Source: Singulisphaera sp. GP187 (lineage in GTDB: Bacteria > Planctomycetota > Phycisphaerae > Phycisphaerales > SM1A02). Taken from it: DNA of 64,000 bases. Made by a program: the position numbers and the translations under genes. The stretch spans positions 248,001 through 312,000 of the forward strand of contig CAMBXO010000001.1 in the NCBI GenBank assembly GCA_945871915.1, written 5' to 3'. The notes below the pieces were generated by a model. It did no database searches. It was not told the DNA's origin and saw only the letters and a list, made by a program, of their open reading frames with translations. Shown here piece by piece: positions 11,467-24,721 of the stretch; position 1 is the first letter of the stretch, and each line of letters begins with the position of its first letter.

Positions 11467-13017
11467 GTGACCGCGCCACCGACCCACTCTCACGCAGAAC
11501 CCATTTCGCATACCGCGGCCGGTCCGGACGACCCGGTGGATGCGTTGATGGCGGCTTCCGAAGCCGAAGCGATTCTGGTGGAAGAGGGCGAGATTGCCAG
11601 CGGTCGCTTGGCTGGCAAGAGCATGCGAGCGGCGATTTGGATTCTTGCCGTTCCGGTTCTTCTGCAACAGTTGATGATTGCGTGCGTGGGTCTGGTGGAC
11701 AAAGTGATTGCGGGAAATCTGCCAAGCGAAATGGTGGTGCCCGCGCTCGATGGCATTGGCATTGGAACGTATGTCGCATGGTTTACGGGCATCGCCTTCG
11801 CAGGCCTTGGCGTGGGTGGCCAAGTGATCATCGCTCGGTCGATGGGCTCGGGAATTCGAGGCGACGCGCAGGCGGCGCTTGGTCAAAGCGTCACGCTCGG
11901 TTTCCTGTGGGGGATCGTGGTTGGATTATTGATGGCGGCACTCACGCACCCTCTTGCACGGATTGCAGGACTTTCACTCGAAGCCGAGGGCTATTGCACC
12001 CTGTATGTCACCACGATTGCGTGGAGCATGCCCTTCTGCGGACTTATGAACATTGGAAGCATGTGCCTGCATGGGGCCGGTGAAACAGTGCGGCCGAGCC
12101 TGATTTCCATTGGGGTGAATGTCATCAATCTTGTGGCCACATGGTTGCTCAGCGGCGTGGATCTGCGTGTGCATGGAGCCACGCTGTCCAATCCACTTCC
12201 ACTTGATCCATTGACGTGGGGTGTGTGGGGCATTGCTGCAGGAACATCGCTCTCCTACATCGTCGGAGGCATCATGACTTTTGTGGTGATGCGGCGCGGT
12301 GTGAAGGATCTTCGACTGGATTGGAGCGACTTGCGGCTTACGCGCCAAATGTCGTGGCGCATTTCACGCGTTGGCATTCCAAACTTTCTCGAAGGCCTCG
12401 CCATGTGGGGAAGCAGCTTGGTGTTGATGGCCTTCATTGGTGTGATCTCGCGTGGAGCCGATGGAGCGGCTGCGGTCAGCGGCCTTGTGGGCGCGCACAT
12501 GATCACGGTGCAGTGGGAGTCCTTTAGTTTTCTTCCTGGCTTTGCCATGGGCACGGCGGCGGGTGCACTTGCCGGACAGTATTTGGGCGCTGGCAATGCA
12601 CGACTCGCTCGCAAGTCCATTTGGGCGTGCACGGGCATTGGCATGGCGATCATGGGAGCTATGGGTGTGTTCTTTATGACACAAGGGGCGTGGCTCACGA
12701 GTGTGATTTCGAATGAGCCGGTTCATCTTGAAGAAGTTCCCAAACTGCTTTTTGCGTGCGGGTCGGTGCAAATCTTCTTCGCCCTAGGCATGTCTTTGCG
12801 ACAGGGGCTGCGAGGCGTGGGTGACACCAAGTGGATCTTTGCCATCACGGTGGGAAGCATTTATGTCCTGCGACTTCCATTGGCATGGATTCTTGGAGTC
12901 TCGATGGGCTATGGGCTTGCTGGAATCTGGTGGGCGCTCAGTCTTGAATTGGTGGCTCGCGGCGTCCTGTTCCTGCTGCGTTTCCAGAGTTCTGCATGGG
13001 AACGCCTACGCGTGTAA
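11467..13017 (+). CDS. MATE family efflux transporter
   Basis: Multidrug and toxin extrusion-type antiporter, 516 residues with about twelve membrane helices beginning near residue 54 (IWILAVPVLLQQLMIACVG). Family-type segments include GGQVIIARSMGSG, INIGSMCLHGAGETVRPSL-like and ALGMSLRQGLRGVGDTKW. It has a long hydrophilic N-terminus of about 50 residues. GTG start; the gap after the lipoprotein gene has no clear promoter. Substrate unknown. Confidence 0.85.
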   Translation: MTAPPTHSHAEPISHTAAGPDDPVDALMAASEAEAILVEEGEIASGRLAGKSMRAAIWILAVPVLLQQLMIACVGLVDKVIAGNLPSEMVVPALDGIGIGTYVAWFTGIAFAGLGVGGQVIIARSMGSGIRGDAQAALGQSVTLGFLWGIVVGLLMAALTHPLARIAGLSLEAEGYCTLYVTTIAWSMPFCGLMNIGSMCLHGAGETVRPSLISIGVNVINLVATWLLSGVDLRVHGATLSNPLPLDPLTWGVWGIAAGTSLSYIVGGIMTFVVMRRGVKDLRLDWSDLRLTRQMSWRISRVGIPNFLEGLAMWGSSLVLMAFIGVISRGADGAAAVSGLVGAHMITVQWESFSFLPGFAMGTAAGALAGQYLGAGNARLARKSIWACTGIGMAIMGAMGVFFMTQGAWLTSVISNEPVHLEEVPKLLFACGSVQIFFALGMSLRQGLRGVGDTKWIFAITVGSIYVLRLPLAWILGVSMGYGLAGIWWALSLELVARGVLFLLRFQSSAWERLRV

Positions 13018-13093
13018 CGATTGGCAACGAATCGTCAAGATTTCACCGGGGCATGAATCGACGCAGCGTTCTCTTGCAATTACACTCGCCGGA

Positions 13094-14494
13094 ATGCTGC
13101 CGAGTTACCCGATGCACGATGCCATGGATCGAGGATTGTTGCGAAGCGTTGCCGATGGTGAGGTTCGCCTGACACCCGAACAATCTCTTCGCTTGTTTCA
13201 AGACATGCCGCTTGCCGAACTTGGTTACTGGGCCGACGAGCGGTGTCGCGTGATGCATGGGGAGGCCATTCGCACCTATGTCATGGATCGCAACATCAAT
13301 TACACCAATGTATGCACGGCTCATTGCACCTTTTGTGCGTTTCGACGAGATGGCGATGACAGCGATGCTTACACGCTGACCGTGGACAAAGTCTTGCACA
13401 AAATTCAGGAACTGGTGGACATTGGCGGCACACAGATTCTGATGCAAGGCGGCATGAATCCGGAGTTGCCGCTGGAGTGGTACGAGCACTTGCTCGCCGC
13501 CATCAAGCAACGCTTTTCCCGCGTGCATGTGCATGCCTTTAGCCCCCCTGAATTTGTGGAGTTTGTACGGTTCTTTCAATCACCCGGCGAAACACTTGAG
13601 GCGCAGTTGAAGCATGTGATGGAGCGACTGCGACAGGCTGGTCTGGACAGTATCCCCGGTGGCGGCGGCGAAATTTTTGCTCCAGCCGTTCGTCGCAAGA
13701 TTGGGCTTGGCAAATGCACCGCAGAGGAATGGCTCACCGTCATGCGTGTCGCCCACAGCCTTGGCATGAACACCAGTGCCACCATGATGTTTGGACACAT
13801 CGAAGGCTTGGCGGATCGCATCCATCACCTGGAGCAAATTCGAGCGTGGCAGGATCGGTCCATCGCTGACTTTGCACATGATGGTGGCGGCCGCTGCATG
13901 GCCTTTATTTCGTGGCCTTTTCAACGGGAGAACACACCCTTGGGCCGCGCAAAGAATTGGGGAGAGGGCCCTGGCGATGACCGAAGGCAACCGTTTCCGG
14001 GCGATGTGGTGGCACGGCTCGACGGCAGCGGCACCAAAGAGGGCCATCCGGAATTTGGTCGCCGCGTGCGAATGAGCGGAAGCACCGATTACTTGCGCAC
14101 GCAAGCCATCAGTCGATTGCATCTTGACAATGTGTGGAGCATCGGCAGCAGTTGGGTCACCATGGGTCCACACATTGGTCAGACGGGTCTGCGATACGGT
14201 GCCAACGACATGGGAAGTGTGATGATGGAAGAAAATGTGGTGTCCAGCGCGGGCACCACGCATTGCATGAATCAAGCCGAAATCTGCCGGTTGATTCGAG
14301 ACGCTGGATTTCTGCCCGCACAGCGTGACAATCATTACGACTTACTTCAGGTGCACGATGGCCCCGAAAGTCCGGACTTGTGCGTGACCGACTGGTCGCT
14401 GCATCGCCCACCGACTCTGCATGTGGAACACCGACGCGCCGAACCCACCGCTGTTGCATTGACTGTGGGCGAGCGAGCCGTTACGGACCGCTAG
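13094..14494 (+). CDS. mqnC: Cyclic dehypoxanthinyl futalosine synthase (radical SAM)
   Basis: Radical SAM enzyme of the futalosine menaquinone pathway, acting just before MqnD. The 4Fe-4S motif is CTAHCTFC, preceded by DRNINYTNVC. MqnC features ILMQGGMNPELPLEWYEHLL, HAFSPPE, GLDSIPGGGGEI, TATMMFGH-like, and GANDMGSVMMEENVVSSAG are present; these separate it from MqnE. At 466 residues it is longer than usual (about 370-400), with about 30 inserted charged residues after FQRENTPLGRAK and an extended C-terminus. The start is chosen downstream of the MATE stop; ATG codons at 13112 and 13127 are alternatives. Its 3' end overlaps the convergent gene by 14 nt. Confidence 0.88.
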   Translation: MLPSYPMHDAMDRGLLRSVADGEVRLTPEQSLRLFQDMPLAELGYWADERCRVMHGEAIRTYVMDRNINYTNVCTAHCTFCAFRRDGDDSDAYTLTVDKVLHKIQELVDIGGTQILMQGGMNPELPLEWYEHLLAAIKQRFSRVHVHAFSPPEFVEFVRFFQSPGETLEAQLKHVMERLRQAGLDSIPGGGGEIFAPAVRRKIGLGKCTAEEWLTVMRVAHSLGMNTSATMMFGHIEGLADRIHHLEQIRAWQDRSIADFAHDGGGRCMAFISWPFQRENTPLGRAKNWGEGPGDDRRQPFPGDVVARLDGSGTKEGHPEFGRRVRMSGSTDYLRTQAISRLHLDNVWSIGSSWVTMGPHIGQTGLRYGANDMGSVMMEENVVSSAGTTHCMNQAEICRLIRDAGFLPAQRDNHYDLLQVHDGPESPDLCVTDWSLHRPPTLHVEHRRAEPTAVALTVGERAVTDR

Positions 14495-16332: not shown

Positions 16333-17394
16333 ATGAAACTGATTCTTGCCAACCCTCGTGGATTCTGCGCTGGCGTGTACATGGCCATTGATGTGGTCGA
16401 CCAATTGCTGGAACTCTGCCCGGGCGAAGCGATTTATGTGTATCACGAGATCGTGCACAATCTGCATGTTGTTGAGCGATTTCGCGGTCGAGGCGTTCAA
16501 TTTATTGAGGATCTTGCCGCAGTCCCCGAAGGCGCCATTGTGGTGTTTAGTGCTCACGGCGTAAGCCCTGCACTTCGTTCGCAGGCCTTGGCTCGCCGAT
16601 TGACTGCGATTGATGCCACCTGTCCGCTGGTCACCAAAGTGCACAATGAAGCGATTCGTTATGCCAAGGCGGGCTATCAGATATTGCTGGTCGGCCACTT
16701 GAATCATCAGGAAGTGATCGGCACACGCGGCGAAGCGCCCGATGCCATTCAGGTAGTGGAGAAGCCGCAGGACATTCCACACCTGAAGATCATCGACCCA
16801 AATAAGTTGGTGTATCTCACGCAAACCACGCTGAGTACGGACGATGCCGAGGTGATCATTGCCGCGCTGCGTGCTGCATTTCCGAATTTGAGGGAGCCGC
16901 CGTCAAGTGACATTTGTTACGCCACCACTAATCGGCAGCGAGCGGTGCGGGCCATTGCGCCGGACGTGGATTTGGTGTTGGTGGTTGGAAGCGCTAACAG
17001 CAGCAATTCCGTTCGCTTAACTGAGCTTTCGCGGAAGGTGGGAACCCAAGCGAAGTTGATCGACGACAAGAGTGAACTGAAAGCGGAGTGGTTTCAAGGG
17101 GTGCAGTCTGTGCTGATTACTGCAGGAGCCAGTGCTCCGGAAGACCTGGTGCACGATCTGATTGTGGAATTGATCGATCGGTACGGTGGCGAAGTTGAGC
17201 AGCGAGATATCTACCGCGAAGAAGTGGAATTTGGTTTGCCGGGAACCTTGAAAGAGTTGATGCGCCAGCGAGGAACGGATCCAGCCGATCGACGCGTGAT
17301 TCGTAAGGACAGCGCGGCGCAACTGCATCAGTGGCTTGAAGAACGCCGTATTCCAAATCGGACGGTGGACTTGACGATTGGTGCAACGGCGTAA
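16333..17394 (+). CDS. ispH: 4-hydroxy-3-methylbut-2-enyl diphosphate reductase
   Basis: Last enzyme of the MEP isoprenoid pathway, reducing HMBPP to IPP and DMAPP with an iron-sulfur cluster. The three cluster cysteines are Cys12 (NPRGFCAGV), Cys97 (DATCPLV) and Cys195 (SDICYAT), at family positions. Also seen are YHEIVHN, FSAHGVSP, GHLNHQEVIGTRGE, TQTTLS and GSANSSNSVRL. The C-terminal about 50 residues (LKELMRQRG onward) extend beyond E. coli IspH (316 residues) and are not recognised. rlmN follows 15 nt downstream. Confidence 0.95.
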   Translation: MKLILANPRGFCAGVYMAIDVVDQLLELCPGEAIYVYHEIVHNLHVVERFRGRGVQFIEDLAAVPEGAIVVFSAHGVSPALRSQALARRLTAIDATCPLVTKVHNEAIRYAKAGYQILLVGHLNHQEVIGTRGEAPDAIQVVEKPQDIPHLKIIDPNKLVYLTQTTLSTDDAEVIIAALRAAFPNLREPPSSDICYATTNRQRAVRAIAPDVDLVLVVGSANSSNSVRLTELSRKVGTQAKLIDDKSELKAEWFQGVQSVLITAGASAPEDLVHDLIVELIDRYGGEVEQRDIYREEVEFGLPGTLKELMRQRGTDPADRRVIRKDSAAQLHQWLEERRIPNRTVDLTIGATA

Positions 17395-17409
17395 TCCGTT
17401 GGTGGACGC

Positions 17410-18507
17410 ATGAACACCACTGCATCGTTTTTCGAAATGGATCTGGATGGCGTGCAAGCGTGGGCTGCTGGCCATGGCTTGCCCGCCTTTGCAGCCAAGC
17501 AGTTGATGGATTGGGTGTATCAGCGAGGCGTGGCCGATCCAGCCAAGATGTCCGACCTTTCAAAAGCGACTCGAGAACTTGTGGCACGCGAGATGACTTT
17601 TGAGCAAGGCATGATCCGAAAGCATCTCTTAGCCACCGATGAAACGCAGAAACTTTTGATGGCATGGCCGAGTGAGCCAGTCAAGACTTTGGGGGGCATC
17701 GCACTTCCGGTTGCGCAGCCAGCATCCAAGGAACGGCAGACCGAATGCGTCATGATTCCGGCGGACGGCCGCAAGACGGCGTGCGTGTCAAGTCAGGTGG
17801 GGTGCCCGGTGGGCTGCACCTTCTGCGCCAGCGGCCTTGGTGGACTTGAGGGCAATCTCACGCGAGGTCGCATCGTGGAACAAGTCTGGCAACTGGCACG
17901 GTTGTCGAATGTCCAACGCATTAGCCATGTGGTGTTCATGGGAATGGGCGAACCGCTTGCCAACTTTGAGGCGGTCACCGGAGCCATTCGAACACTCAAC
18001 GCACCGTGGGGCTGCGGCATCAGCGCTCGCCGCATCACGGTGAGTACCGTGGGATTACCTGCGGCCATTCGCAAATTGATGGACTTTGATTTGCCTGTCA
18101 CGCTGGCACTCAGCTTGCATGCCCCAACGGACGAACTTCGGCGGCAGATCATTCCATGGGCGCACTACAGCACCATTCCAGAATTGCTTGAGGCGTGTCA
18201 GGAGTGGTTTCAGAAAACGGGGCGAGAAATCACGCTCGAATACATCGTGCTTGGCGGGTTCAATGACGCCATTGAACATGCGGAACAGTTGGCAGTGCAT
18301 GCACGCAGTCTTCGAGCGAATGTGAATCTGATTCGATGGAACGAAGTGGAGGGTCTTCCCTACCGTCGGCCCGCAACCGAACACGTGCATCGCTTTCAAG
18401 AAACGCTTCGAGCACGAGGCGTGAATGTGCACATTCGATCCAGTCGCGGTCGTGACATTGCGGCAGCGTGCGGGCAACTTCGCCACGAATCCCGAATCAG
18501 CGCGTGA
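17410..18507 (+). CDS. rlmN: 23S rRNA (adenine(2503)-C(2))-methyltransferase
   Basis: Radical SAM enzyme that methylates A2503 of 23S rRNA (and A37 of some tRNAs). The 365-residue protein has the 4Fe-4S motif CPVGCTFC (Cys132, Cys136, Cys139), QVGCPVGCTFCASG context, FMGMGEPLANF, STVGL, LALSLHAP and the C-terminal radical-bearing Cys354 in IAAACGQL. The N-terminal Rlm domain (AAKQLMDWVYQRG) is present. Probably cotranscribed with ispH. It ends 1 nt before the end of the convergent oxidoreductase-like gene. Confidence 0.95.
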   Translation: MNTTASFFEMDLDGVQAWAAGHGLPAFAAKQLMDWVYQRGVADPAKMSDLSKATRELVAREMTFEQGMIRKHLLATDETQKLLMAWPSEPVKTLGGIALPVAQPASKERQTECVMIPADGRKTACVSSQVGCPVGCTFCASGLGGLEGNLTRGRIVEQVWQLARLSNVQRISHVVFMGMGEPLANFEAVTGAIRTLNAPWGCGISARRITVSTVGLPAAIRKLMDFDLPVTLALSLHAPTDELRRQIIPWAHYSTIPELLEACQEWFQKTGREITLEYIVLGGFNDAIEHAEQLAVHARSLRANVNLIRWNEVEGLPYRRPATEHVHRFQETLRARGVNVHIRSSRGRDIAAACGQLRHESRISA

Positions 18508-18508
18508 C

Positions 18509-21500
18509 TTACGACATTACAGGCAACGGAATCCCTCGCATCGCCTGAGCCGTCCAGTCGCGGATGACCGCCGCGTCCATCTGATGCAATTCGCTACGTT
18601 CCGCCGCACTGTGCAATCGGTCGATGGCCTCATGAAATGCAGACGCGTGATGTGGTTCCGCCGCCGCACGCGCGCACAATTCAATGACCGCATCTCGTAA
18701 ATCACGGCCTGAGGGTCGCCCACGCACGCCGTGAGGCACAAGGTGACCAATCATGCGCAGCAGTCGTGCTGGCCAGTCACTGGACCGAAAGTCCAAGCGA
18801 ATAAAGCGGCCAAGCAGCGTGGCTTCGATGCGATAGAGAATCCGCCGCTCCATGTGATCTCCGCGAGCCGGGCGCACATCGAGGCGGCGCCGTGAAAGGC
18901 GTCGCTGTTCCGGACTCGTGCACATGGTGGCCACATACACGGAGTCCCGAATCAACATGGCTTCCGCCAGTGGAAGAACCGCTCGCTCCGCAAGGCCATC
19001 CACCGCCAGCATGCCATCCATCAGCCGCGCATACGCTTCGGCGTAACTCACTCCACCCCACAGCCAGCATCGGTGCAACCCATTCACCATGTCTCGCTGG
19101 GCGCGCCAAAGAACTGGATCCCGACGCCATGCATTGGTTCGTCGAAGCAATTGCCCGAATAACGGTCGCAGTCGTGCCGCCGCTCGCTGGCCACCAAGAC
19201 CGCTGTGTGAAATCTCAAGCAGAAAACGCCGAACCAGCGCCACCGGCTGGTCCGGAGTTCGTTGGTGGGGAGCGTCTCGATTGTCGGACCATTCGGCTGC
19301 AATCACGCGTCCGTAACGCATGGCTTCCAAGCACCGACCAAAGCCGCGTGCTTCGGCTCGTAAGAGTGCGGCTTCAAGAAATTGAACCGACACGGGAACA
19401 AGCCCTCGCTGAAAGGCCGCACCAAGCAGGACGACATCCGTCAATCGATCCGTCAAAAAGGTGCGTCGAGATAGCGTGGCCACATCTCGTAAGAAGGCAT
19501 CGTGTCCGCGGCAGGCAATCGAAATCGCTTCTCCGAGTTCCGCCGCCGCTCGCACACGCGCCGCATCCACTTGATCCTCAAGCACTCCATTGTTCACCAC
19601 CACATACGTTCGATCGGGATCACAGATGCGAAGAAATGGATCGGGCCCAATAGCCCGCAGAGATTCCACTGCATCGGTGCCAAGCAACAGATCCGCCTCT
19701 CCATACGGCGTCTGCGCCGGAATCGCGGTCTCACCACTTTGCTGCCGCGTGAAGAGAACCTGACACCATGCTCGGCGGCCCGGACCAACGGGCGTGGTCT
19801 GAAAACTTGCCTGCACTCGGTAACCCATGGCTCGCCCCGCTTCACATAGCACGGTGGCAACAAGACCAGGCGCGTCGCCTCGCCACCCGGCAAGGTGGGC
19901 TCGCCATTGACCCGCATCGGAGTGAATCACGCGAGGCGGCGGAGGCCGCGGCGCACTGGGTTCCAATTCAATCGGCCGCGGTGGCTTGCTTCGAAGCACT
20001 TCAACTTGTTCAAAGAGCGGGCGAATACGCACTTCGAATCGTGCCGCAGCTCGATCCTGAAGGACTTCAACCGTCAATTCGGTGCGAACAGGATTAGTGC
20101 CTCGCTCAAGCCCTCGCTCCAAGATCACTTCGGGTGCTGCCGGACGAACATCGCATGCCGCGTCGGCAGACCAGATGGCTCGCTGCAACGGAACAAATCC
20201 AAGTCGATCCGCCTCGGCCATCGTGCGATCGAGTGCGGCCACATCTCGGCGTGCGGGCGGACCATCCTGTCCAATGACAACGGTAAGGCCGTCTCGCAGC
20301 GCAGCCGATCGCAGCAATTCGCGAAAGACTGCGCGATCATTCAGATCACCTCGAACAACTTGAATCGGCGCAGCCGCATCCACCGGCGTTGCGGCGCGCG
20401 AAAGTTGTTCAGGATCTGGCCCGGGTTCATCACCCAGATCACACACCACCAGAATGCGCGGACGAATCTCTCGTGCGGCCTGTCTGACCGCTGCCACACC
20501 CTCGGCAGCAAACCGGCGGCGATCCCAAATTTCAACGGTGGCAACGCGATCCGCAACGGGCGCGGTCATGCCCGGCGACCACACGGCCGTGAGCGGCTGG
20601 TCCGGGGATTGAGGACGCTCACCCAGTTCCTTGGCCACATCCTCCACCATGCTTCGCACCGCTTCGATCGCCCCGCTTGCTCCAAGACCAACGCCCCGCT
20701 CAGGAACCGGCCATTGTTCAAGGCGTTCGTCGATGCGAACAAGCCGCCGGTCGATTTTCAAAGACGGTCGAATGCTTGCGAGCAAATGCACGATTTTGCG
20801 AGCCAGAATGCTTGGTCGCGTGCCATCATTGATTTCAAGTCGCGGCGCCTCTGCACCGTCACTTGGAAGTTGGTCCCACCACACGCTCGCGATGCGCTCA
20901 CCCGACCGTCTGCCTGATTCCGCAACGGCCAGCAATTCGGACGCAAGACTTCCAGGGCGCGGCTCCAACACCACAACATTTGCACAGCGAGAGAGCAGCC
21001 GCAACACGGAGGCTTCATCGAGGGGATTGGTCAGACCCACTGAGAGCATCGGAACGCGACCAGCCAATCCCCATTCATCCAGAAGATGCCGAGCCGCCAC
21101 AACACAGGGCCCCACGGCGACCACCCCCCACGGTTCGGTTTCACCTGGCGACGGAAGACTGGAAAGCCGATTCAATTCAAGCCGGCGACCCATGGCCAGC
21201 GGCTCTTCACCTTCGGCCGGAAGTGGTGTGCGCCGAGGTCGCCTCATTTCTAACGCGGCATCGATGCGCTCCAACATTCGATTGGGCTCCATGGCCAGCG
21301 TGTCGAGCGCGCGAAGCAAACTGACATGCACCGAGATCGCCACGGTCACTCGCCCCGCGTCGGCCAATCGAAAGGCATCTTTCACAGCATTACGAAGCCC
21401 CGGAAGATCGCAGGGCGTCAAACAGGGAATCCCAAGGGCGTGCGTTGCACGCAATGGACACGCACCCGGCACCAAATAGGGATTGTCTTCCAGCAGCAAC

Positions 21501-21889
21501 ACCGCTCGGCCCGCACCGCGAATCTCTCGAGTTCCATCTCGCCACGCCGCCGCCATGGCGATGTCCAATTGATCATTGGGAACACAGACCAATCCGCGAC
21601 GACCCATGGCCGCGGCCCGAACCGCCAGCGAAACGCCGCGAGCCGCATCAACCATGGAGATCACATGCAAGCCATGTCGTTCAACCGTTTCGGCACTTCG
21701 CTCATCCATCACCGCTCGAAAGAGCCCTTCCATCGGCGGCCGCCGCGGGGCGACCACTTCACCGATCGGCAATTCATGCTCAAGTAATCCCTTCACGATC
21801 GCCTCAAAGGCAGTGCACAACGCAAATCCGTCGCCTCGCGTCAGCGGTGGTCGCCAGGGCGTCGCATCGAGCAACTCCCCTTCACTCAT
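18509..21889 (-). CDS. Large 2-oxoacid:ferredoxin oxidoreductase-like protein (IorA-IorB-type fusion, probably degenerate)
   Basis: 1126 residues. Residues about 1-210 resemble the pyrimidine-binding POR N-domain of indolepyruvate oxidoreductase alpha (TRGDGFALCTAFEAIVKGLL, GLHVISMVDAARGVSLAVRAAAMGRRGLV). Residues about 250-370 resemble the domain II region. About 671-836 is the gamma/IorB-like domain (GDAPGLVATVLCEAGRAMGYRVQ, ADLLLGTDAVESLRAI). The region where a TPP-binding GDG...N motif should lie (about 410-600) has none, and no CxxCxxC ferredoxin motif is present. Catalysis by the known mechanism is therefore doubtful. The start overlaps the HAD gene stop by 4 nt. It may have a structural or altered role. 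Confidence 0.65.
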   Translation of the reverse strand: MSEGELLDATPWRPPLTRGDGFALCTAFEAIVKGLLEHELPIGEVVAPRRPPMEGLFRAVMDERSAETVERHGLHVISMVDAARGVSLAVRAAAMGRRGLVCVPNDQLDIAMAAAWRDGTREIRGAGRAVLLLEDNPYLVPGACPLRATHALGIPCLTPCDLPGLRNAVKDAFRLADAGRVTVAISVHVSLLRALDTLAMEPNRMLERIDAALEMRRPRRTPLPAEGEEPLAMGRRLELNRLSSLPSPGETEPWGVVAVGPCVVAARHLLDEWGLAGRVPMLSVGLTNPLDEASVLRLLSRCANVVVLEPRPGSLASELLAVAESGRRSGERIASVWWDQLPSDGAEAPRLEINDGTRPSILARKIVHLLASIRPSLKIDRRLVRIDERLEQWPVPERGVGLGASGAIEAVRSMVEDVAKELGERPQSPDQPLTAVWSPGMTAPVADRVATVEIWDRRRFAAEGVAAVRQAAREIRPRILVVCDLGDEPGPDPEQLSRAATPVDAAAPIQVVRGDLNDRAVFRELLRSAALRDGLTVVIGQDGPPARRDVAALDRTMAEADRLGFVPLQRAIWSADAACDVRPAAPEVILERGLERGTNPVRTELTVEVLQDRAAARFEVRIRPLFEQVEVLRSKPPRPIELEPSAPRPPPPRVIHSDAGQWRAHLAGWRGDAPGLVATVLCEAGRAMGYRVQASFQTTPVGPGRRAWCQVLFTRQQSGETAIPAQTPYGEADLLLGTDAVESLRAIGPDPFLRICDPDRTYVVVNNGVLEDQVDAARVRAAAELGEAISIACRGHDAFLRDVATLSRRTFLTDRLTDVVLLGAAFQRGLVPVSVQFLEAALLRAEARGFGRCLEAMRYGRVIAAEWSDNRDAPHQRTPDQPVALVRRFLLEISHSGLGGQRAAARLRPLFGQLLRRTNAWRRDPVLWRAQRDMVNGLHRCWLWGGVSYAEAYARLMDGMLAVDGLAERAVLPLAEAMLIRDSVYVATMCTSPEQRRLSRRRLDVRPARGDHMERRILYRIEATLLGRFIRLDFRSSDWPARLLRMIGHLVPHGVRGRPSGRDLRDAVIELCARAAAEPHHASAFHEAIDRLHSAAERSELHQMDAAVIRDWTAQAMRGIPLPVMS

Positions 21890-22779
21890 TCCGGCACCTT
21901 GGTGGTGGAACGAACCAGTTCACCTTTGAGTAATTGCTCAACAGCAGTGGCGAACCCATCCTCAGCGTGATGTGGAGCAACATGATCGGCCAGTGCCAGC
22001 ACACTGGGATCCGCATTGGCCATCGCAATTCCCAGAGCCGCTTCACGCACCATACGCAAATCATTGAGCCCGTCTCCGATTGCCACCACGCAATCGCGAG
22101 GGATGGAATGGGTGTCACAAACGCGCTCCACCATGGTCCACTTGTCGGTGGTCGGCGCATAAATTTCAAGTAAGTGCGTCACGCTTCCGACAGCCTGCTC
22201 CGCTGTCACCGCACTCCACGATTGCATGACCGCCCGATTTCCAAAGTGCGCCCGCATGGCGCGACATACCGGCTCAAGCCGATCCGCTCGATCGATCGCA
22301 CCCACCCGCAAAATGTGCTGGTGCCCACTTTGTGCGGACTCCGGCAGCGTGTTCACCCGTTTCACCGGAACAGCATGTTGCTCAAGCCACCAAATGGTTG
22401 CTGGGTCCAGCGGTCCCGTGCCAACAAAAACATAATCGTGGGCACAGACATGGTGGTCATGGAGCAGATGGGCGACCAAACCCTCGGCCAGAAGTGACTC
22501 AGTTAATTCATGCACCAGATCGCTCTCGATCACAATTCGATCGAGTGTGGCACCACTCATGGCATCGTTGAGCGCACTACCGCCTGCCGTAATCGCCAAC
22601 CCATCGTGGCCAAGATCCACCAATGTTCGACGGCTCTCGCGCCAACTCCGCCCCGAGGACGGAACCACCATCCACCCCGCGCCTCGAAGCCGCTCCACCG
22701 CGCGGCGGTTGGCTTGACTTACTCGGCCCTTGCCATCCAGGAGCGTTCCATCAAGATCAACGGCAACAAGTCCAACCAT
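21886..22779 (-). CDS. HAD-IIB (Cof-type) phosphatase
   Basis: 297-residue haloacid dehalogenase phosphatase. Motif I is VAVDLDGTLL with the nucleophile Asp, motif II includes VPSSGRSW, motif III the Lys of TDKWTMVERV, and motif IV VAIGDGLNDLRMV. A Cof-type IIB cap lies between motifs II and III. Substrate unknown; relatives act on sugar phosphates or nucleotides. The start is ATG 22779, nine codons inside the longest frame, because TATGCT lies 6 nt before it and homology begins there. The following large oxidoreductase-like gene overlaps by 4 nt. Confidence 0.87.
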   Translation of the reverse strand: MVGLVAVDLDGTLLDGKGRVSQANRRAVERLRGAGWMVVPSSGRSWRESRRTLVDLGHDGLAITAGGSALNDAMSGATLDRIVIESDLVHELTESLLAEGLVAHLLHDHHVCAHDYVFVGTGPLDPATIWWLEQHAVPVKRVNTLPESAQSGHQHILRVGAIDRADRLEPVCRAMRAHFGNRAVMQSWSAVTAEQAVGSVTHLLEIYAPTTDKWTMVERVCDTHSIPRDCVVAIGDGLNDLRMVREAALGIAMANADPSVLALADHVAPHHAEDGFATAVEQLLKGELVRSTTKVPE

Positions 22780-22791
22780 GCGTCGAGCATA
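22780..22791 (-). promoter_or_regulatory. Putative -10 box of a leaderless HAD phosphatase promoter
   Basis: TATGCT (minus strand, 22786-22791) ends 6 nt before the ATG at 22779. It decides the start over the longer frame. Confidence 0.5.
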
Positions 22792-22829
22792 GAGAAGGCG
22801 TGCCAACCTTCGCTACACTGGGTGCCCCC

Positions 22830-23627
22830 ATGGACAAGCGACTCAAGGACATTCAACAGGGCACGCTCACGGAGAGCCGCCTGAATAGTGACTTTCTCTT
22901 CTGGCTCAAGGAAAAAGGCCCCAATTACCTTCTTGCGGCACTGGTTCTGCTGTGCGGCGTGCTTGGCGTGAATTGGTGGGAGCAAAAGAAAAAAATGGGC
23001 CACGATGCCGCATGGAATGAATTGAACGAGGCGTCAACCCCTCAGCTGCTGGTCGAAGTAGCCGACCGCAACGGGACAGTCGACTCGATCGCGGTGCTGG
23101 CCAACCTTGAGGCGGCCGACAGTTACATGGAGTCCGTGCGAAGCGGAAAGCGTTTCGATCGCGAAGCAACGGCCGCGGATGTTGCGGTGACGCCAGAACT
23201 TCGAACTCAATATCTTGACGAAGCCGATCGCTTGTACGCGAAAGTGGCCGCAACACTCGATGGAAAGCCTGCAAGCGAAAGCCTTTTGTTGGCCAGCGCG
23301 TTTTTTGGTCGCGCGGCGGTTGCAGAGTGTCGCCAAGATTTGAAAGCCGCTGAAGAACACTTGAAAGCCGCGGCGGCAGCGACCAAGGATCTGTACCCGC
23401 CATTGGCGGCCACTGCGGAAGATCGCATTGCCACGCTGGGCTCACTGACCAACCGCCCGCCATTGCCTTCGCGACCGCGAACGACACCACCGGAAATGAG
23501 CATGCCCACCATGCCAGTCGCTCCACCAACTGGTGAAGTCACTGCAAGCGAGATTGATCTTCTGACTGGTGGAACGCCACCACCTTCGCTTGCCGCTCCT
23601 GCATCCATTCCTGCACCACCCAAGTGA
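22830..23627 (+). CDS. Membrane-anchored TPR-like protein
   Basis: 265 residues. A single membrane helix (YLLAALVLLCGVLGVNWW, about residues 33-50) is followed by a helical periplasmic region resembling YfgM/TPR_21 proteins (AECRQDLKAAEEHLKAAAAATK, PPLAATAEDRIATLG). A proline-rich tail follows (PSRPRTTPPEMSMPTMP). YfgM-type proteins assist secretion or envelope protein folding; the role here is not established. TACACT lies 10 nt before the ATG. The stop overlaps the GTG of the following pseudouridine synthase (GTGA). Confidence 0.6.
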   Translation: MDKRLKDIQQGTLTESRLNSDFLFWLKEKGPNYLLAALVLLCGVLGVNWWEQKKKMGHDAAWNELNEASTPQLLVEVADRNGTVDSIAVLANLEAADSYMESVRSGKRFDREATAADVAVTPELRTQYLDEADRLYAKVAATLDGKPASESLLLASAFFGRAAVAECRQDLKAAEEHLKAAAAATKDLYPPLAATAEDRIATLGSLTNRPPLPSRPRTTPPEMSMPTMPVAPPTGEVTASEIDLLTGGTPPPSLAAPASIPAPPK

Positions 23628-24721
23628 CAACGGGCGGCGACGATCCGCAGATCGCTGCCGAAGCGAGCGAGAGCGATGACGAGACACCGGTTCGCCTTGT
23701 CTTCACTTTGCAACATGATCTCGACAAGCGGCTCGACCGTTACTTGGTCGATCGGGTCCCCACCCTCAGTCGAACACAAATCCAGAGGCTGATCGAGGAG
23801 CGATCCGTATTGGTGAATGGCCGTCTTCCAAAGGCCAGCACGCACCTTCGCAAAGGTGATTGCGTGGAAGCGATTCTTCCGCCGCCTCCATCCGATGAAA
23901 CACCTGCCGACGACATTCCTTTAGAAATTCTTTTCGAGGACGATGATCTGATCGTTCTCAATAAACAGGCTGGACTCATTGTGCATCCGGCTCGAAGTCA
24001 TAAACGAGGCACGCTTGTGAATGCGTTGGCGTGGCACTTTCAACATGTTTCAGCCGGAAGTTTGAGCACGGTTGGCAAGGAATTCGCTCGGCCGGGTGTG
24101 GTGCATCGACTCGACAAGTGGACCACCGGCGTGATGGTGGCGGCGAAGAGTGACACCGCGCACTGGAGACTGGCCAAACAATTTGAGCGTCGCACCACCG
24201 GCAAGCGATATCTGGCGATTGTGCATGGTCAACCGGAGCCGGAGATGGATCGCATTGACTTGCCGCTGGGCAAGCATCACACAATTCGCGAAATGTATGC
24301 CGTGCGCTGGGACGAAACGGGCAAACCAAGTCAAACTATTTTTCGAGTGCGTGAGCGGTACAAAGATTTTTCTCTCGTTGAAGTGGAGTTGCTCACCGGT
24401 CGCACCCATCAAATTCGTGTTCACATGAGCCATCTCGGCTGGCCGCTTGCAGGCGACGACCTGTACGGCGGCAAGCATTTTTCTGAAGCCGATCTTGGAA
24501 TTTCCAAGGAGGCCACGCGAATGGTTCTTGATCGACAGGCATTGCATGCGTCATGGCTTTCTTTCGAGCACCCTCTGACGCCGCGACCGCTTGGATTTAC
24601 CGCGCCACTGCCTGATGACTTTCGGATCGTGGTTCGGGCTCTGCGGTCGCGCGGCTACACAACGGTAGACCCCAAAGGATGCACTTTGGATCTAGGGCTT
24701 CTTGGAATTCCGCGTTCCTAA
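23624..24721 (+). CDS. RluA-family pseudouridine synthase (RluD-like)
   Basis: Converts uridine to pseudouridine in rRNA, probably 23S. The 365-residue protein begins with a short acidic tail, then an S4 domain (LDRYLVDRVPTLSRTQIQRLIEERSVLVNG). The catalytic domain follows with the motif GVVHRLDKWTTGVMV, containing the catalytic Asp (RLDxxTxG), and TGRTHQIRVHMSHLGWPLAGDDLYGG. S4 plus this motif set fits RluD. GTG start overlapping the upstream stop by 4 nt; converges with aat, overlapping 4 nt. Confidence 0.9.
   Translation: MTTGGDDPQIAAEASESDDETPVRLVFTLQHDLDKRLDRYLVDRVPTLSRTQIQRLIEERSVLVNGRLPKASTHLRKGDCVEAILPPPPSDETPADDIPLEILFEDDDLIVLNKQAGLIVHPARSHKRGTLVNALAWHFQHVSAGSLSTVGKEFARPGVVHRLDKWTTGVMVAAKSDTAHWRLAKQFERRTTGKRYLAIVHGQPEPEMDRIDLPLGKHHTIREMYAVRWDETGKPSQTIFRVRERYKDFSLVEVELLTGRTHQIRVHMSHLGWPLAGDDLYGGKHFSEADLGISKEATRMVLDRQALHASWLSFEHPLTPRPLGFTAPLPDDFRIVVRALRSRGYTTVDPKGCTLDLGLLGIPRS

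Follow-up and report, generated by a model that had tools for sequence, protein, structure and literature searches.

What remains of a redox enzyme once the sites that hold its cofactors have gone, and can such a remnant still be a working protein? The question is raised by a single open reading frame of 1126 codons plus a stop, on the minus strand at positions 18509-21889 of a stretch of 64,000 nucleotides from Singulisphaera sp. GP187 (Planctomycetota, Phycisphaerales; contig CAMBXO010000001.1, positions 248,001 to 312,000), which as a whole is here called the window. An earlier note, made from the letters alone, had placed a 1126-residue protein exactly there, and had described it as a giant relative of indolepyruvate:ferredoxin oxidoreductase (IOR) that keeps fused alpha N-terminal and gamma domains, lacks a binding motif for thiamine diphosphate (TPP) and ferredoxin cysteine clusters, and would be either a pseudo-enzyme or a new activity in need of separate subunits. 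The analysis presented here points to the former: the gene, which we call the pseudo-IOR gene, probably encodes a catalytically dead IOR that has been kept for a new, non-redox role.

The descent of the protein can be followed over its whole length. By hhalign, a profile of 19 family members (A1) aligns with a second profile, built from eight fused IORs in its order (A2; seven intact, plus L043, whose TPP motifs are damaged) over 1086 columns, from 11-1111 on 6-1184, i.e., end to end, with a probability of 100 and an E-value of 1e-107. The domain order Pyr, II, pyrophosphate-binding (PP), Fe-S, gamma and DUF6537 is found over the full length, the PP and Fe-S parts being present only as remnants. 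The fusion of alpha N-terminal and gamma regions is thereby confirmed, and the alignment shows the window protein to descend, over its full length, from a fused ferredoxin oxidoreductase of the indolepyruvate type; it is hardly giant, as the intact relatives L031-L037 are longer (1222-1264 residues). Searched alone against Pfam, it gives PF01558 (POR, gamma) at residues 676-841 with 23.6 bits, the gathering score being 27.4 (28 bits for the gene in the six-frame genome search). PF20169 is detected in the intact L031 and L037 and in the degenerate L044, and not in the window protein. The PDB searched by sequence gave no match, and no other enzyme family was recognized in Pfam, NCBIfam or the PDB sequences.

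Intact relatives carry the motifs CPGCPHR, GDTGCY, MGDGTFFHSG and AMTGHQ, as well as seven cysteines in the Fe-S region. In a short-pattern search, CxGC, the GDG type and three cysteine patterns were each found in none of 60 distinct f1-type frames (f1 being the window's family, and f4, f5 and f6 other families of the same order), against 44-46 of the 47 IOR loci outside the phylum that serve as an independent control (L084-L130; CxGC in 44, CxxCxxC in 46); the 22 relatives in the class that all show the patterns had been preselected as intact by the same motifs, and are therefore no independent proof. The 60 frames come from 67 loci, 54 of them having at least 1000 residues and six being partial, and L006, L023 and L051 were left out before the first alignment. 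Looser patterns do match f1 frames (a GDxGC type in three, TG[HGR][QR] in ten), matches that are taken as chance.

At the level of single residues, neither of the TPP/Mg motifs (GDG...N and GDxGC) is present in the window protein or its family: in 29 of 31 family rows the alignment has a gap where GDxGC would stand, and at the GDG positions other residues prevail, often arginine. The glutamate of the Pyr domain, which activates TPP according to the part of a structural study that deals with the motifs of 2-oxoacid:ferredoxin oxidoreductases (OFORs) and their roles (PMC5020499), has been lost in 31/31 f1 rows (Ala in 24, Pro in 4, Ser in 2, Gly in 1); it is present in 6/6 rows of f5, 4/4 of the f2/other-class group, 14/16 of f6 and 5/5 of the outgroup, the position being Asp in 5/5 rows of f4. 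Six of the seven aligned Fe-S cysteines have gone from the window protein, C579 being kept, and one such position is Cys in 26 of the 31 f1 rows, the others being mostly replaced. Where 21 intact rows are conserved to 95% or more, f1 retains 0/78 columns in the TPP domain, 3/43 in the Fe-S region and 5/78 in Pyr, 10/46 in domain II, 22/70 in gamma and 9/68 in the C-terminal domain. What had been said of the absent motifs thus stands, and what does not is that the regions themselves would be missing, for alignable remnants persist at about residues 395-560 and 561-655, modelled with a pLDDT mostly of 73-94 in the former and partly below 50 in the latter. The OFOR reaction requires TPP, Mg and Fe-S sites, and since these are absent, the TPP-dependent oxidative decarboxylation of 2-oxoacids with reduction of ferredoxin should be impossible.

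The pseudo-IOR gene is near-universal in family f1. It is found in 36 of 37 f1 genomes, the exception (G029) being 72% complete, and among 301 genomes of the order at least 115 f1 rows match, with two f1 misses among the rows listed; the 115 were scored by match, their motif state having been read in a subset, and 111 further non-matching rows stand outside those listed, the order of which is seemingly by kinship. In 199 genomes drawn from the phylum, six match at 1e-30: the window's own, four others from the order, and one from the class. Homologues on named contigs are mostly labelled as Phycisphaerales, Phycisphaerae or planctomycete metagenome-assembled genomes (MAGs), with titles that include lake (Baikal) and marine (ALOHA, Arabian, TMED9) sources; the family-type loci among them (L053-L083) were put with f1 by similarity and not by family code. 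In sections of a study of Lake Zurich, freshwater Phycisphaerae MAGs are assigned to clade CL500-3, and plancto70, the source of L065, is mentioned (PMC6461901).

Within the window's genus, purifying selection acts on the gene. Over ten same-genus pairs, the ratio of nonsynonymous to synonymous substitution rates (dN/dS) is 0.016-0.19, values that are rough because dS exceeds 1.6 in six of the pairs (the other four give 0.016, 0.071, 0.104 and 0.19); by domain it is at most 0.21 wherever computable, two pairs having domains with saturated dS and thus no value. The two marks of a pseudo-enzyme, catalytic residues lost and purifying selection, are therefore found together, and the first option of the earlier note finds its support in the motifs absent from all 60 frames, in the lost glutamate and in the low dN/dS.

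An AlphaFold2 model built on the f1 alignment (pLDDT 85.3, pTM 0.82, with low stretches that include residues 207-227 and 591-613) has PFORs as its best Foldseek matches (6cip_A, E 2.8e-12), and VIA-align places 510 residues (19-868) on PFOR 7plm_A (Z 26.1, root-mean-square deviation 4.8) and aligns Pyr plus domain II with 6n2n_A (Z 27.8), OFOR chains overall giving Z of 25-28. The OFOR fold of Pyr and domain II is recovered by both programs; for gamma and PP, covered within whole-protein comparisons, the observations are PFOR rows that reach residue 868 and the PF01558 match at 676-841. These comparisons rest on PDB chains, the AlphaFold2 model of an intact IOR, from an 8-row alignment, being poor (pLDDT 56). 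In addition, 38 columns that are at least 90% conserved in f1 hold a different residue in intact relatives, and these newly conserved positions are distributed over every domain. Arginine accounts for 13 of the 38, in a protein with 12.7% Arg (binomial P 5e-4, post hoc), and the newly fixed charged residues include R84, E134, E238, R297, R301, R364, E453, R670, R705, E731, R808, R815 and D818. Four of the arginines (R670, R705, R808 and R815) lie in the gamma domain, and R670 and R705 sit in gamma loops where 21 intact rows have invariant glycines.

In StOFOR, as described in part of the same structural study, ferredoxin is held by wings that domain III provides, and the subunit interfaces involve domain II among other parts (PMC5020499). 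In the pseudo-IOR, domain II, through which known OFORs dimerize, and the wing-like gamma domain could have been kept as a binding platform, a binding or docking role being favored since gamma and domain II keep the most ancestral columns; the replacement of two invariant gamma-loop glycines by fixed arginines suggests in turn an anionic partner, which could be an acidic carrier, a ferredoxin-like protein or an anionic small molecule. That such a binding step exists is a guess that we hold tentatively. A wider scenario is equally doubtful as a whole: the family would have turned a fused OFOR into a near-universal non-redox protein, whose wing, having once gripped ferredoxin and now bearing arginines, would dock an acidic partner or anionic ligand, and related lineages would have decayed the same gene independently, through intermediates that lost the TPP site first and the Fe-S cysteines later.

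Several points weigh against a retained pseudo-enzyme of this kind. Globally, Foldseek fits the model to PFOR loosely (whole-chain TM 0.35, root-mean-square deviation 16.7), and structure matches past residue 382 are few. Glyoxylate carboligase reportedly does without the canonical glutamate, so that its loss alone would not prove inactivity. R670, R705 and R808 are absent from the degenerate copies of f4 and of g37, a genus in f6; the arginine argument is confined to the window's family, and a high-GC composition may add to it. Finally, no operon points to a role, because 4 of the 59 loci with a match to the neighboring HAD-family gene have it on the other strand.

Could the cofactors be supplied by another protein? 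In the window genome (an assembly of 2.24 Mb, 98.4% complete), the pseudo-IOR gene is the sole match to PF01558, and PF01855 (POR_N) has none; PF02775 matches once, in a protein that from its sequence reads as complete and acetolactate-synthase-like. Among four PF00676 matches, two are separate E1-type proteins, each adjoining a Transket_pyr/Transketolase_C gene, a weak one is a split transketolase adjoining its own Pyr partner, and the remaining one lies in a 998-residue frame. A TPP partner was thus not found in the window genome with PF01558, PF01855, PF02775 and PF00676, families such as DXS lying outside this search, and the need for a separate TPP or ferredoxin subunit finds no support there. 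When 151 f1 genomes were searched with the TPP/Fe-S segment of an intact IOR, 23 gave a match, in 18 over the remnant stretch only (17 at the known pseudo-IOR locus, the other being G464). A separate IOR-type gene is present in the other five (G309, G023, G230, G026 and G279), and 146 of the 151 have no separate IOR TPP/Fe-S match in this IOR-type segment search. The matches of G023 and G309 are above the curated cut-off (701 and 700 bits) and those of G230, G026 and G279 below; four of the five genomes show, in addition, weak hits on other OFOR-like frames. Since a real or likely IOR coexists with it in the same genomes, the pseudo-IOR would have a different role. The high-scoring copies, G023:C90 and G309:C1 (L152, L153), are fused IORs that occur alongside the pseudo-IOR.

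These data bear on the alternatives. An active oxidoreductase that borrows its TPP or ferredoxin subunit from elsewhere is scarcely probable: split OFORs exist, the protein still has Pyr and gamma domains, E1-beta chains are among the matches of its Pyr/domain II part (Z ~23), and an E1-type gene (PF00676) stands downstream of the degenerate copy in 3/4 g37 genomes, to which are opposed the complete PF02775 protein, the lack of other PF01558 or PF01855 matches, the E1-type and split transketolase genes with Pyr partners of their own, the 146 genomes just mentioned, and the loss of the Pyr glutamate as well. That TPP is still bound, through an altered and unrecognized motif, is very unlikely too; some TPP enzymes lack the canonical glutamate and the model is fairly confident over the PP remnant, but the gap at GDxGC, the replaced GDG positions and the complete loss of conserved PP columns speak otherwise. 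Hardly credible is a pseudogene on its way out and kept by chance, which would agree with the lost catalytic parts and the stepwise decay in relatives; it was rejected because dN/dS in same-genus pairs is not near 1 and at most 0.21 in every computable domain, and most of the frames remain long. The main rival is a new enzyme, in which the core of gamma, domain II and DUF6537 would carry out non-TPP chemistry on an anionic substrate, as the newly fixed charged residues and the low dN/dS would allow; we consider it unlikely, given that sequence searches recognized no other enzyme family and that the new conserved positions occur in every domain.

The order itself holds several stages of such a decay. 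In f5, 6/6 loci are intact, and in f4, 6/6 are degenerate; the 17 loci of f6 comprise 12 intact, three that are TPP-damaged with intact Fe-S cysteines (L043, L141 and L142) and two fully degenerate by point replacement (L044 and L143, genus g37). In the half-way state, therefore, TPP damage runs ahead of Fe-S loss, and these three could possibly be redox-only or transitional proteins; G188, the source of L141, also has an IorA-like gene above the curated cut-off. Like the window's family, the degenerate copies of f4 (6/6) and g37 (2/2) have lost the main TPP and Fe-S patterns; they differ from it in that all seven cysteines of the g37 copies are point-replaced and the f4 copies show deletions, and both have other neighborhoods. 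None of 12 genomes checked combines a degenerate copy with an intact one of the planctomycete type.

How often the sites were lost is a matter on which tree and gene order disagree. From trees built on 67 and 32 selected rows, the careful one groups f1, f4 and g37 (95/91), and f1 with f4 (98/97), which favors a single loss; against this, the stems are long (0.85-1.4), and three alternative arrangements, in which that grouping is broken up, withstood the test on the quick tree, with likelihoods above the free search (p-AU 0.85, 0.62 and 0.64). A ketoacyl-synthase gene stands divergently beside the degenerate gene in 4/4 g37 genomes (L044, L169, L172 and L173), as well as beside the intact L037, L163 and L165 and the damaged L168, and since degenerate, intact and damaged copies share this neighbor, the g37 gene has apparently decayed at its original locus within f6. 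We lean towards repeated loss of the sites. In 3/4 g37 genomes the degenerate copy is followed directly by a TPP-dependent E1-type gene (PF00676 in L044), which could be an unrelated neighbor or a replacement TPP subunit.

Among known systems, the nearest is the fused IOR (NF009589, PRK13030; NF009588, PRK13029), which has the same domain order over its whole length; the window protein is without its TPP motif, activating glutamate and Fe-S cysteine set, and scores 36.1 bits on PRK13030 against a cut-off of 816, thus missing the curated family score, a cut-off under which the planctomycete relatives L031, L037 and L043 (322-449 bits), and motif-bearing planctomycete forms in general, also stay. 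With the two-subunit IorA/IorB (TIGR03336, TIGR03334) it has Pyr, domain II and gamma in common, IorA having TPP and ferredoxin parts, and its score on IOR_alpha (TIGR03336) is 16.6 bits against 650.9. PFOR (7plm, 6cin, 1b0p), which contains TPP and three clusters, shares with it the folds of Pyr and domain II, and probably that of gamma (491-510 residues aligned, Z ~26), with an identity of 10-13% in the rows examined. Because the TPP motif, the activating glutamate and the cysteine set were each looked for and not found, the window protein should not be classed as an IOR; it would be a real, family-wide conserved pseudo-oxidoreductase of IOR descent. Dead kinases and proteases are well known; it is unusual for a whole bacterial family to keep a dead multi-cofactor redox enzyme of more than 1,100 residues, and no description of a conserved dead IOR came up in searches of the open-licence literature. 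Because intact, half-decayed and fully decayed versions occur in one order, it is possible to trace, and to test, how the enzyme became a pseudo-enzyme. There is also a trap for annotation: surveys of lake and ocean metagenomes could mistake pseudo-IOR genes for IOR or ferredoxin metabolism.

Table 1. The pseudo-IOR gene, its domains and associated genes (window positions, unless a locus is given)
Feature	Position	Strand	Remarks
Pseudo-IOR gene	18509..21889	minus	1126 aa plus stop; family profile match to fused IORs
Pyr-like N-terminal domain, residues 14-205	21275..21850	minus	fold match to OFOR Pyr/domain II; TPP-activating Glu replaced
Domain II, residues 235-372	20774..21187	minus	fold match; retained IOR columns counted over 206-385
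TPP pyrophosphate-binding (PP) domain remnant, residues 395-560	20210..20707	minus	retained IOR columns (none) counted over 386-560
Fe-S region remnant, residues 561-655	19925..20209	minus	C579 the only one kept of seven aligned cysteines
Gamma (POR) domain, residues 656-865	19295..19924	minus	PF01558 at 676-841; retained IOR columns counted over 656-868
DUF6537-like divergent C-terminal domain, residues 880-1110	18560..19252	minus	full-length profile alignment
HAD-family hydrolase (PF08282), upstream neighbor	21886..22776	minus	stop overlaps pseudo-IOR start; own start uncertain
E1-type gene by degenerate g37 copy	L044:6764-7999; L169:133-1353; L172:5302-6474		directly downstream

The neighborhood of the gene (Table 1) is itself conserved. 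Of 66 family-type loci, 59 have a HAD match adjoining the pseudo-IOR, 55 sharing its strand and four on the opposite one (L062, L063, L064 and L070), for which reason the hydrolase was rejected as an operon partner; three of the seven loci without the match start at a contig edge, and some genomes are counted twice in this tally (e.g., L026 and L067). The order ispH-rlmN, pseudo-IOR-HAD, TPR-rluD (window 16333-24721) persists in divergent family members and is shared by none of 15 loci of f4, f5 and f6, and it looks like an inherited order.

Two further observations may be added. In the class family f15 (e.g., G352, G409 and G340), the fused IOR-like frames reach some 1570-1870 residues, several hundred above most, which suggests an extra domain. 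On the plus strand of the window, at 12821-14494, there is a radical-SAM-like protein, which we take to resemble the menaquinone enzymes of the futalosine pathway.

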